Origin: Prolixibacteraceae bacterium
Lineage (GTDB): Bacteria; Bacteroidota; Bacteroidia; Bacteroidales; Prolixibacteraceae
DNA length: 39,305 bases
Reading direction: 5' to 3'
NCBI GenBank assembly: GCA_027858715.1
Contig: JAQICD010000016.1
Location: 1 to 39,305, forward strand
Shown here: positions 1-21,950 of the stretch, piece after piece
Numbering within the stretch: position 1 is the first letter of the stretch
Layout: each line of letters opens with the position of its first letter
The notes under the pieces: generated by a model
What the model saw: the letters and a program-made list of their open reading frames with translations, nothing else
The model's database searches: none
What the model was told of the DNA's origin: nothing
Program-made: the position numbers and the translations under genes

Positions 1-1127
1 CGGCTTTTACCTGTTCCATATTGTGCAAACCAGTCACCACCTTTATCAATAATCGCATTGATGTTTGCCAATGTCTCCACGTTGTTCAGCACGGTAGGTT
101 TGCCCCAAAGTCCGGCAGTAGTAGGAAATGGCGGACGAGGACGTGGTTCTCCGCGCTTGCCTTCAATCGATGCCATCAGTGCCGTTTCTTCACCACATAC
201 AAAAGCACCGGACCCCATGCGTATATCAAGTTCAAAATCGACACCTGTACCCAGGATGTTTTTGCCAATGAGCCCCATTTCGCGGGCATCGTCTATGGCC
301 TTCGCCAGGCGTTCGATGGCCAGCGGGTATTCGGCGCGTACATAAACAAAACCGCGGGTAGCCCCAATGGTATATCCACCAATGACCATGCCTTCAACCA
401 CACTATGAGGGTCGCCTTCGAGCGTACTGCGATCCATGTAGGCTCCGGGGTCGCCTTCGTCGGCATTGCAAAGCATATATTTTTGATCGGCCTTTTCTTT
501 CTTGGCAAAACTCCATTTCATCCAGGTTGGAAATCCGGCACCACCACGACCCCGCAATCCCGATTTTTTCATCTCATCAATCACACGGTCGGGTGAATAA
601 TCGGTTAACACTTTACGTAATGAAGCATAGCCACCAGCCTCGATATAATCGTTAATGTTCGTGGGGTCGATATTTCCACAGCGTCGTAAAACAATTTTCC
701 GCTGGCGGTTAAAAAGCTTGATGTCGTTGGTGTTGGCTATGGGTTTGCCATCTTCATCGGAATGATAAAGCAGGCGTTCAACCGGTTTGTCATTTAAAAG
801 GTGCTGCTCTACAAGTTCGTCGATATCGGCAAGCTGAACATTTTCGTAGAAAACGCCTGATTTTTTCATCATTATTACCGGCCCTTTGGAACATGGCCCC
901 ATACATCCGGTAGTTTTAATGATGAACCGCTTGTCGATTCCCCGTTTTTCGAGGTTAGCCTTCAATTCAGAATGAACATTGAGCGACCCGCAAGCAATAC
1001 AGCCACCACCGGTACAAACCTGTATTATTTCATCAGCCTGGTTGTTGGTATCTTTGTATTCTTCAGTTAGTTTACCGGAATAATTATCGAATTCTCCGGG
1101 TGAAGTAAATTTATTTTGTGTACTCAT
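1..1127 (-). CDS. NADH-binding subunit of NADP-reducing/bifurcating [FeFe] hydrogenase or NuoF family (HndC/HydB-like), 3' end outside window
   Basis: Manual reverse-strand translation from ATG at 1127: MSTQNKFTSPGEFDNYSGKLTEEYKDTNNQADEIIQVCTGGGCIACGSLNVHSELK...SGLRGRGGAGFPTWMKWSFAKK...CNADEGDPGAYMDRSTLEGDPHSVVEGM...GAFVCGEETALMASIEGKRGEPRPRPPFP; has the NuoF FMN/NAD motifs plus an N-terminal 2Fe-2S thioredoxin-like domain. Missing from the ORF track because it runs off the window. Confidence 0.93.
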   Translation of the reverse strand, partial: MSTQNKFTSPGEFDNYSGKLTEEYKDTNNQADEIIQVCTGGGCIACGSLNVHSELKANLEKRGIDKRFIIKTTGCMGPCSKGPVIMMKKSGVFYENVQLADIDELVEQHLLNDKPVERLLYHSDEDGKPIANTNDIKLFNRQRKIVLRRCGNIDPTNINDYIEAGGYASLRKVLTDYSPDRVIDEMKKSGLRGRGGAGFPTWMKWSFAKKEKADQKYMLCNADEGDPGAYMDRSTLEGDPHSVVEGMVIGGYTIGATRGFVYVRAEYPLAIERLAKAIDDAREMGLIGKNILGTGVDFELDIRMGSGAFVCGEETALMASIEGKRGEPRPRPPFPTTAGLWGKPTVLNNVETLANINAIIDKGGDWFAQYGTGKS

Positions 1128-1198
1128 TTTGTTATCATTTGCGAAATGAACAATAAGCCTGGTTAGGGCCGTAACTGGTAAAAATGAATGAGAAGAAA

Positions 1199-18795: not shown

Positions 18796-19731
18796 ATGGA
18801 AAGAATTAGGCAATTGTTCGATATTCAATATCCTGTTATTTCAGGTGGAATGGTTTGGTGCAGTGGCTGGCGTTTGGCATCGGCCGTTAGCAATGCTGGC
18901 GGACTCGGTTTGATAGGTGCAGGTTCTATGCACCCCGAAACGCTTAGAGAGCATATTCAGAAAACAAAGAAAGCCACCTCGAAACCTTTTGGCGTTAACG
19001 TACCATTGTTGTATCCCGAGCCAGAGAAAATAATGGATATTATTGTATCTGAACAGGTGAAAATTGTGTTTACTTCGGCCGGTAGTCCAAAAAAATGGAC
19101 TGCATTTTTGCACCAGCACGGGATAAAAGTAGCGCACGTAGTATCGAGTGCTCTTTTTGCAAAAAAATCGGAAGACGCAGGAGTTGATGCCATAGTTGCC
19201 GAGGGTTTCGAAGCCGGAGGTCACGAAGGGCGTGAAGAGACAACAACCATGAACTTGATTCCGGCTGTGCGCAAGGCTGTATCGCTGCCATTGCTTGCTG
19301 CTGGAGGCATTGCGTCAGGAAGCCAGATGCTGGCAGCGATGGCTTTGGGAGCCGATGGTGTTCAGATAGGCTCGTTATTCGCTGCTTCTGAAGAATCGTC
19401 GGCGCATCTGGCATTCAAACAAAAAATTGTTGAAACCGGCGAAGGTGGAACCAAACTGGTTATGAAACAACTGGCACCAGTTCGCTTAATTAAAAATGAT
19501 TTTTTTAAGCGGGTAGAAGAGGCTGAACAAAGTGGTGCAGGCATCGATGAGCTGAAAGCTATACTCGGTAAAGGCCGGGCAAAAATAGGAATGTTCGAAG
19601 GCGACCTCTGCGAAGGCGAACTGGAAATTGGTCAATGTGCCTCGTTAATTAACCGCATTGAGTCAGTGGCTGTGCTTTTTGAGCGTTTACTCGATGAATA
19701 CCAAATGGCATTAGGACGCTTGTGTCGATAA
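18796..19731 (+). CDS. Nitronate monooxygenase / FabK-like flavoprotein
   Basis: 311 aa: LFDIQYPVISGGMVWCSGWRLASAVSNAGGLGLIGAGSM, VAEGFEAGGHEGREETTTMNLIP, LLAAGGIASGSQMLAAMALGADGVQIGSLFAA. Confidence 0.93.
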   Translation: MERIRQLFDIQYPVISGGMVWCSGWRLASAVSNAGGLGLIGAGSMHPETLREHIQKTKKATSKPFGVNVPLLYPEPEKIMDIIVSEQVKIVFTSAGSPKKWTAFLHQHGIKVAHVVSSALFAKKSEDAGVDAIVAEGFEAGGHEGREETTTMNLIPAVRKAVSLPLLAAGGIASGSQMLAAMALGADGVQIGSLFAASEESSAHLAFKQKIVETGEGGTKLVMKQLAPVRLIKNDFFKRVEEAEQSGAGIDELKAILGKGRAKIGMFEGDLCEGELEIGQCASLINRIESVAVLFERLLDEYQMALGRLCR

Positions 19732-19932
19732 TAAATAAACAGTTTCTCAGTGCAATAGATTGTTGGATTTTAGAAACAAGATAATAGACTTTGTTCCACA
19801 ATGCCTTAAAAATGTTTATCGAACTATTGATGTTAAATTATTGAGAAAAATGGGGACTTCTGGTAAACTTAAAAATTAAATGTTTGTTTTTAATGGAAAT
19901 ATTTAAGAACATTACAAGCAAATTAAAAACAA

Positions 19933-20007
19933 ATGAAGAAACATACCCTGCATATTCATTTTTTTATCAGTAACTATTGTTGTTGCTGTTCTTGTTGTTG
20001 CTGTTAA
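19933..20007 (+). CDS. Candidate poly-cysteine leader peptide upstream of cysK-cysE
   Basis: 24-codon ORF: ATG AAG AAA CAT ACC CTG CAT ATT CAT TTT TTT ATC AGT AAC TAT TGT TGT TGC TGT TCT TGT TGT TGC TGT TAA = MKKHTLHIHFFISNYCCCCSCCCC*; 8 of the last 9 residues are Cys; stop lies 79 nt before cysK. Confidence 0.8.
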   Translation: MKKHTLHIHFFISNYCCCCSCCCC

Positions 20008-20086
20008 TAGCAGTTTCTTTTCAATATTTCTATTTTTAATTCATCCTTTTTTATAATTTTATAACTTAATATAATACGTTGATATT

Positions 20087-21028
20087 ATGAGCAATGTAGA
20101 TAATATAAGTCAATTGATTGGGAAAACTCCCCTGGTTAAACTTAACCGTTTGGCCTTGAGTACAGGCGCAAATGTTTATGTGAAGCTTGAAAGCATGAAT
20201 CCCGGTGGGTCGGTGAAAGACCGTTTGGCATTGGCTATGATAACTGCAGCCGAAGATAATAATATGATCGATAAAAATACGACCATTATTGAACCCACAA
20301 GCGGGAATACAGGAATTGGACTGGCCATGCTTTGTGCAATTCGAGGCTATAAATTAATAATTGTAATGCCCGAAAGTGTTTCGACTGAACGTCGTTCGAT
20401 ACTTAAAGCTTATGGAGCTGAATTGTATTTAACGCCAGCTGAAAAAGGTATGAAAGGTTCTATTGCCAAAGCCAAAGAGCTTGCATCAAAACAAGAAAAA
20501 GCTTTTATCCCGATGCAGTTCGAGAACGAAGCTAATGCAGCTTTCCACAAAGCAACAACCGGTCCCGAGATTTGGGAAGATACCAATGGGGAAGTTGATA
20601 TTTTTGTGGCTGGTGCAGGTACCGGAGGTACTATTACCGGGGTAGGTGAATTTTTACATTCGGTTAAGCCCGAAAGTAAAATGGTAGTAGTTGAGCCAAC
20701 CGATTCAGCCGTAATTTCAGGTCGCGAACCGGGTGCACATAAAATTCAGGGCATTGGAGCCGGTTTTATTCCAAAGGTTCTGAAAATAGATGTGATTGAT
20801 GAAATATTCACTGTTGGCAACGACGAAGCATTTGAGTATGCACGCAGGCTGGCAATCGAAGAAGGGATTTTCTCAGGTATTTCCGCAGGTGCTAATGTTT
20901 ATGCGGCGATAGAACTGGCCAAACGCCCCGAAAACAAAGGTAAAACCATTGTTACTATAATTTGCGATACCGGCGAACGTTATTTAAGCACACCTTTATA
21001 CAATACAGATGTCAACAATCAACAATAA
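20087..21028 (+). CDS. cysK: Cysteine synthase A (O-acetylserine sulfhydrylase)
   Basis: 313 aa: IGKTPLVKLNRL, VKLESMNPGGSVKDRLALAMI, EPTSGNTGIGLAM, GAGTGGTITGVG, GIFSGISAGA. Confidence 0.97.
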   Translation: MSNVDNISQLIGKTPLVKLNRLALSTGANVYVKLESMNPGGSVKDRLALAMITAAEDNNMIDKNTTIIEPTSGNTGIGLAMLCAIRGYKLIIVMPESVSTERRSILKAYGAELYLTPAEKGMKGSIAKAKELASKQEKAFIPMQFENEANAAFHKATTGPEIWEDTNGEVDIFVAGAGTGGTITGVGEFLHSVKPESKMVVVEPTDSAVISGREPGAHKIQGIGAGFIPKVLKIDVIDEIFTVGNDEAFEYARRLAIEEGIFSGISAGANVYAAIELAKRPENKGKTIVTIICDTGERYLSTPLYNTDVNNQQ

Positions 21029-21950
21029 AAAGATATCGGAACAAATGCGTGAATCAGTAACACGCTTGTCCAAAAAGAATTCATACCGAAGTGTATGCCA
21101 CGAACATGAGGTTGGCGAACCAATGCCATCGACCGAAAAAATGGCAAAGCTGGTAAATAAAATCCGCGAAATTATTTTTCCGGGATATTTTGGTTCTACA
21201 ACGCTTGACCCCGTTGCTATTAGCTACTATATGGGCGTTTATGTAGATGAAGTTTTTGAACTGCTGAGTGAGCAAATACTTGCCGGCATGTGCTTTTCGT
21301 GTAGCGAGAAGAAAGCCGAAGACAGGGATATTCAGAAGAACAGGGAAAAATCGAAGTCAATCGCTGCCGAATTTATCAGTTTCCTGCCTGAGCTGAGGCG
21401 TATCATGTCAACCGATGTTGAGGCGGCTTATAATGGCGACCCGGCAGCGCAGGGCAGGGGCGAGGTCATTTTCTGTTATCCGGCTATCAGGGCTATTTCA
21501 AGTTACCGGATTGCGCACAAGCTATTACAGCTCGAAGTGCCACTAATTCCACGTATCATTTCCGAGATGGCACATTCCGAAACCGGAATCGATATTCATC
21601 CGCGTGCTGTGATTGGTGAAAATTTCACCATCGACCATGGAACAGGTACTGTAATAGGCGCAACATGTATTATAGGAGGTAATGTGAAACTTTATCAGGG
21701 CGTTACACTGGGAGCTAAAAGTTTTCCGCTCGACGAAAATGGAAACCCGATTAAGGGTATTCCTCGTCACCCTATTATCGAAGATGATGTTGTTATTTAT
21801 GCTCAGGCAACTATTTTGGGACGGATTACTGTTGGCAAGGGCTCTGTAATTGGCGGTAACGTATGGGTAACCAACGATGTGCCACCAAATTCGCGTGTGC
21901 TTCAGATGAAACCTCGAAGCGCTCGTTTTATAGACGGAGCCGGCATTTAA
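21009..21950 (+). CDS. cysE: Serine O-acetyltransferase
   Basis: 313 aa; hexapeptide-repeat C-terminus GIDIHPRAVIGENFTIDHGTGTVIGATCIIGGNVKLYQGVTLGA...RHPIIEDDVVIYAQATILGRITVGKGSVIGGNVWVT; overlaps the cysK 3' end by 20 bp. Confidence 0.95.
   Translation: MSTINNKKISEQMRESVTRLSKKNSYRSVCHEHEVGEPMPSTEKMAKLVNKIREIIFPGYFGSTTLDPVAISYYMGVYVDEVFELLSEQILAGMCFSCSEKKAEDRDIQKNREKSKSIAAEFISFLPELRRIMSTDVEAAYNGDPAAQGRGEVIFCYPAIRAISSYRIAHKLLQLEVPLIPRIISEMAHSETGIDIHPRAVIGENFTIDHGTGTVIGATCIIGGNVKLYQGVTLGAKSFPLDENGNPIKGIPRHPIIEDDVVIYAQATILGRITVGKGSVIGGNVWVTNDVPPNSRVLQMKPRSARFIDGAGI

Follow-up and report, generated by a model that had tools for sequence, protein, structure and literature searches.

Does a short open reading frame (ORF) that ends in a run of cysteine codons, placed ahead of a cysteine biosynthesis operon, sense cysteine supply in a member of the Bacteroidota, a phylum that includes many gut and marine bacteria? 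The question was raised by a locus in the window, i.e. the whole 39,305-nucleotide stretch of DNA that was analysed, which belongs to the draft genome (3.56 Mb, 82% complete) of a Prolixibacteraceae bacterium. The features of the locus and of the leaders compared with it are listed in Table 1.

Leader ORF and genomic context

A preliminary description of the window had reported a 24-codon ORF with eight Cys among its last nine codons, lying in a 355-bp gap and 79 nt before cysK, and these coordinates were confirmed; the gap (19732-20086) separates cysK from a FabK/nitronate-monooxygenase-like gene. The cysteine-making operon was likewise borne out by a 20-nt overlap of cysK with cysE and by profile matches. 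The cysE product scored 161 bits (2e-47) against TIGR01172, below the cut-off of 210.65, and 156 bits (8e-46) against NF041874 (EpsC-type), above the cut-off of 150.

Among 5000 dinucleotide shuffles of the gap, the highest count in nine codons of any ATG ORF was 5 Cys, compared to 8 in the leader. The remaining short ATG ORFs of the 39-kb window, both strands included, contained no more than 3 Cys in 9 codons. The exact Cys tract with its stop occurred only once in the source genome.

A promoter-like block upstream of the leader was also found ahead of the leaders at the other cysK orthologs, most loosely in L005 and L009, and a search of its own genome gave no excess of this block over the control elsewhere. 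The block (TTTG...TTTARGAACRTTACA) may be a promoter, an activator site or an RNA element, and its conservation suggests a short 5' UTR ahead of the leader. No Rfam family was matched at its gathering score when positions 19500-20300 were searched with covariance models.

Table 1. Positions and sequences of the features at the window locus and of the leaders compared with it; all leader peptides end at a stop codon
Feature	Position	Strand	Details
FabK/nitronate-monooxygenase-like gene	18796-19731		5' border of the gap
Promoter-like conserved block	19881-19916	+	TTTG 19883-19886, TTTAAGAACATTACA 19902-19916; also ahead of the other cysK ortholog leaders
Leader ORF	19933-20007	+	24 sense codons, MKKHTLHIHFFISNYCCCCSCCCC; ATG 19933-19935, TAA 20005-20007
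Hairpin H1, possible pause hairpin	19968-19988	+	CAGTAAC/GTTGCTG; first Cys codons paired with the codons ahead of the tract
Regulatory codon tract	19978-20004	+	8 Cys + 1 Ser; TGT TGT TGC TGT TCT TGT TGT TGC TGT
Hairpin H2	19998-20013	+	UUGCU/AGCAG; last Cys codons pair with post-stop bases; then UUUCUUUUC
Spacer, possible Rho-loading/termination zone and cysK initiation region	20008-20086	+	79 nt, G 5%, T 54%
cysK, cysteine synthase A	20087-21028	+	TIGR01139, 455 bits, 9e-137
cysE/EpsC-type serine O-acetyltransferase	21009-21950	+	profile matches TIGR01172, NF041874
Same-genome leader, contig C187 (L292)	about 420-600		MKQILSIKNNTCMCCCMFPKRVEGIGMILF; before osmC-cysK; intrinsic terminator follows
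Same-genome leader, contig C250 (L293)	about 530-1132		MSRSLSINNMICMCCCMLTQHVEGDAVHA; before osmC; intrinsic terminator follows
Same-genome leader, contig C250 (L293)	about 530-1132		MNELLFTYNFTLCCCCRFFKLVKGIFVT; before CBS-like + cystathionine gamma-synthase/lyase-family gene; intrinsic terminator follows
Ortholog leader G001			MEKHNLHIRIFYSNCCCCSCCCCK
Ortholog leader G003			MDRTFRNIYSNCCNACCCKCCCCC
Ortholog leader G002			MKQNLKNMVVVSSISCCCMCCCCC
Ortholog leader G005			MKNYFHSIVSSFNAVRCCCCCCGL
Ortholog leader G010			MSFRYRKRAYSYFFSCCC
Ortholog leader G031			MSFQYRYRTYTYFYSCCC
Ortholog leader G028			MIILVPHISIPAFCCKHN

Conservation of the leader in Prolixibacteraceae

The window leader was compared with those of the orthologous cysK genes of seven other Prolixibacteraceae genomes, giving 8 orthologs. 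All leaders in the five species of the window's genus were exactly 24 codons long, with 8, 8, 10, 8 and 6 Cys (the start of the G003 leader was picked by position, with more in-frame ATGs upstream), and the three leaders of neighbouring genera had 18 codons each, with 3, 3 and 2 Cys. Between the window (L002) and G001 (L003), the Cys tract showed 2 synonymous and 0 nonsynonymous codon changes, the N-terminal part 4 synonymous and 5 nonsynonymous ones, and the sole indel within the ORF was of 3 nt; the one codon that changed in the tract between L007 and L008 was also synonymous. Across the orthologs the N-terminal parts of the peptides diverged and His was not conserved, while the Cys codons and the ORF length persisted. 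The preliminary description had named a non-coding microsatellite without frame conservation as the finding that would speak against it, and the synonymous TGT/TGC exchange, the 3-nt indel and the constant ORF length are at odds with such a repeat.

On the CysK tree, the distribution of the leader was explained by one gain at the base of the clade and one loss. The loss, in two congeners (G006 and G007), removed the ORF and the spacer in a single deletion, after which the upstream block adjoins the cysK ATG; it is well kept in G007 (L078) and degraded in G006 (L004). An order-level search for this cysK subtype gave no additional relatives with a leader. Because TGY runs alone, often followed by TRA, are widespread in Bacteroidota and usually lie antisense to genes or in another frame, the weight of the case rests on conservation; a leader ORF kept by selection, and conserved in frame ahead of a cysteine operon, is supported by these sequence comparisons.

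Three search patterns were set aside. TGYx8 with up to 3 mismatches was too noisy over 140 family genomes, all of which matched. A CCCCC-stop pattern was enriched over its reversed control in 395 class genomes, yet was rejected as a leader marker; the 30 loci inspected were mostly within or antisense to genes and were not leaders. TGYTGYTGYTRR was unusable in three genomes owing to an excess of matches.

RNA structure and spacer

The preliminary description had recognised the UUGCU/AGCAG hairpin (H2) but placed it at 19996-20012, slightly off its actual position, and had rightly called it weak, though its stability was above that of partner shuffles (p<0.05) in three of the five species of the genus (Fisher p=0.0009, 5 species). 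It is absent in L008. A further hairpin that had gone unmentioned, H1, was matched in the terminator-like scan (mean of 0.1 in shuffles) and was more stable than partner shuffles in 4/5 species (Fisher p 0.0001, genus). Both hairpins are weak, and neither was significant in G003. The folding energy of the whole leader RNA was ordinary relative to shuffles in the orthologs except L008.

A scan 3' of the window leader detected no stem plus T-run, i.e. no intrinsic terminator, and in the folds of the 8 orthologs no mutually exclusive antiterminator, and hence no antiterminator/terminator pair, was seen at the cysK leader. The spacer between leader stop and cysK start ranged from 57 to 80 nt among the orthologs, with a G content of 4-7.5% in all 8, compared to 11-19% in front of 12 other genes in the window. 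Such a G-poor, pyrimidine-rich spacer would suit Rho loading, and equally simple translation initiation. The rho gene was present in congeners and neighbours and was not found in the draft (82% complete) of the source genome. Predicted accessibility of the cysK start was nearly unchanged in 7/8 orthologs, whether the leader was free, stalled or at stop.

Paralogous leaders in the same genome

Two more cysK-type genes of the source genome carry leaders upstream (contigs C187 and C250), with intrinsic terminators such as AAGCCCTTCACATTCGTGTGAGGGGCTTTTTTTT. The pattern TGYATGTGYTGYTGYATG matched in 11 of 140 family genomes, against one match for the reversed control, and all 12 places (L295-L306) were leader-terminator units of the MCMCCCM-HVEG type; the genes that follow are, by sequence resemblance, OsmC-like, OsmC-like plus cysK, or cysK-type. 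In 13 leaders, comprising these 12 loci and the CCCC leader, pairing is possible between the 5' arm of the terminator and the segment just downstream of the Cys codons (P 0.0025-0.0385 each, against shuffles). Over the 13 loci, the three arms covary at two positions: at one, four loci carry A-T/T-A in place of G-C/C-G throughout the three arms, and joint change was found at the other as well. As read from these pairings, the geometry is that of a textbook 2:3 antiterminator and 3:4 terminator, and the three paralogous leaders of the source genome are predicted classical attenuators of cysteine genes. One genome thus appears to use terminator-bearing and terminator-less leaders for one amino acid.

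The leader-terminator units of L292, L293, L295, L296, L300, L304 and L305 matched no Rfam family; one tRNA was matched in L296. A sequence resembling the window block, ACAAACATTACA, lies ahead of the CCCC leader on contig C250.

Cys/Met leaders elsewhere in Bacteroidota

Beyond the source genome, related Cys/Met leaders were found ahead of metY and sulfite reductase genes in other Bacteroidota. The pattern ATGTGYATGTGYTGYTGY matched in 8/396 phylum genomes and its control in none. By sequence resemblance, seven of the eight loci were short-ORF leaders, either close to metY-like genes or ahead of genes for a sulfurtransferase and a sulfite reductase, and the eighth (L151) lay upstream of a sulfite-reductase-like gene. 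Upstream of metY in 61 Bacteroidota genomes, a Cys/Met-rich short ORF was found on the sense strand in 13/61 and on the antisense strand in 1/61 (7 versus 0 at a stricter cut). It is fairly probable that the Bacteroidota have a cysteine 'ribulon', in which several Cys/Met-codon leaders set sulfur assimilation directly via Cys-tRNA supply; its proposed parts would be the poly-Cys leader (cysK-cysE), the MCMCCCM-HVEG attenuators (osmC-cysK, cysK), Cys/Met leaders with SAM riboswitch (metY) and others (sulfite reductase). Sulfur assimilation would then be set by Cys-tRNA in genomes for which such control has not been described.

SAM riboswitches were located near six of the related-leader loci searched against Rfam, beside metY leaders. 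In L144, L148, L149, L269, L273 and L289, Cys/Met leaders and SAM-I riboswitches are arranged in tandem near metY, where two-signal control by Cys-tRNA and SAM is possible. L146, L147 and L151 have Cys/Met-rich frames ahead of a sulfurtransferase and/or a sulfite-reductase-like gene, followed in L146 and L147 by terminators.

Proposed mechanism and alternative explanations

On this comparative evidence, namely the conservation of the leader, the paralogous predicted attenuators and the related leaders in other Bacteroidota, the element is best read as a leader ORF that senses cysteine, probably acting as a ribosome-mediated attenuator of cysK-cysE; control of cysK-cysE that responds to cysteine is very probable. 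A ribosome that starts at 19933 would meet eight Cys codons directly ahead of the stop. If Cys-tRNA is plentiful, it would complete the peptide and depart, H2 and the G-poor, pyrimidine-rich spacer would be exposed, and transcription would tend to stop short of cysK. If Cys-tRNA is scarce, it would halt in the tract and shield the 5' arm of H2 and adjacent RNA, and a larger share of polymerases would continue into cysK-cysE. Four elements of this scheme are inferred: that the leader is translated, that ribosomes stall on it, the direction in which expression responds, and termination of transcription rather than translation as the output.

Counted for the attenuator were the conservation of frame and length, the position before the cysteine operon, the single gain and single loss required by the CysK tree, the parallel attenuators in the same genome, H1/H2 and rho in congeners; counted against it were the missing terminator/antiterminator pair, the weak H2 with its absence in L008, the ordinary folding energy and the failure to find rho in the draft. 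The cysteine-responsive attenuator of the preliminary description is thereby supported in part, as a selected Cys-codon leader before a cysteine operon with a putative terminating step. With no strong terminator in the window copy, and with a predicted accessibility of the cysK start that hardly depends on the leader, the output step may lie in the weak hairpin together with the pyrimidine tract, or in Rho. Under a plain Rho mechanism, most of the spacer would stay uncovered by a ribosome halted in the tract, a point also counted against the attenuator. With no intrinsic terminator, weak H1/H2, a spacer that would suit Rho and no predicted masking of the start in 7/8 orthologs, premature transcription termination is the likelier output, by somewhat better than an even chance.

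Translational control, named beside Rho in the preliminary description, is likewise retained here, except that masking of the cysK start is not borne out. In the mycobacterial style of translational attenuation, the RNA stays open for cysK as long as a ribosome is stalled on the Cys codons, and the leader otherwise masks the start. The shared anatomy, a Cys run near the stop and no terminator (PMC1262725), is in its favour, as is the report (PMC9031893) that mycobacterial Cys-run leaders are cysteine-responsive, with sORFs that regulate downstream translation by cysteine supply; the nearly equal start accessibility across leader states in 7/8 orthologs makes it unlikely for this locus. The 3 His beside the 8 Cys of the window peptide would fit a metal- or thiol-sensing nascent peptide that binds metal on the ribosome and sets downstream expression. 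This explanation is very improbable: among the orthologs only the Cys codons and the ORF length persist, His is not conserved, three neighbours keep only 2-3 Cys, the downstream genes make cysteine, and the same-genome paralogs likewise precede cysteine genes, with attenuator hairpins.

The least probable explanation, by a little, is a chance (TGY)n repeat or a neutral uORF without regulatory role, possibly aiding cysK translation by reinitiation. The abundance of TGY runs followed by TRA would allow a chance origin, and reinitiation is a possible mode of action for leader genes that lie near structural genes (PMC4833913), but the 57-80 nt between stop and start are well outside the reinitiation peak at 11-14 bp in Bacteroidetes (PMC4833913), and a chance repeat is largely refuted by the conservation of frame, length and Cys codons in 8 species.

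Relation to known leader systems

Like the trp and his attenuators, the window leader is an ORF with a run of end-product codons before a biosynthetic operon; unlike them, it has no terminator/antiterminator, which its three same-genome paralogs do have. In the experimental work of Canestrari et al. 2020 on mycobacterial Cys leaders, the mechanism is reportedly start-site unmasking. Cys-run leaders without terminators have been predicted in Mycobacterium and P. acnes (cys operons) and B. longum (cbs), with Rho suggested (PMC1262725). The window leader shares with them a short ORF with its Cys run beside the stop, the place before cysteine genes, a pyrimidine-rich spacer and the lack of a terminator hairpin, a likeness of anatomy. 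It differs from the mycobacterial poly-Cys leaders in its host phylum and in that masking of the cysK start was not predicted in 7/8 orthologs; a leaderless (5'-terminal) start codon is not evident either, because the promoter-like block lies upstream of the ATG (17-52 nt before it).

The uORFC-8-2 motif before cysS in Rhodobacterales, for which ribosome-mediated attenuation was proposed, also has conserved Cys codons in a uORF, but, unlike the window leader, it combines two Cys codons with two stems and an intrinsic terminator, and belongs to another gene and phylum (PMC8632094). For Bacteroidota, the search of the available papers returned general remarks on leader peptides (PMC9723704, PMC7366714) and no report of Cys-run leaders, though the 2010 survey by Lopatovskaya et al., as cited in PMC4833913, may hold related predictions. 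With the present locus, Cys-codon attenuation, described from Actinobacteria and Alphaproteobacteria, would also occur in Bacteroidota, where it would probably have arisen independently. Two points become open to direct testing: the working of a terminator-less leader, and a possible coordination of sulfur metabolism in the Bacteroidota through the translation of sensor ORFs. L004/L033 and L078, upstream of cysK, carry a natural deletion of leader and spacer and offer a ready-made comparison.
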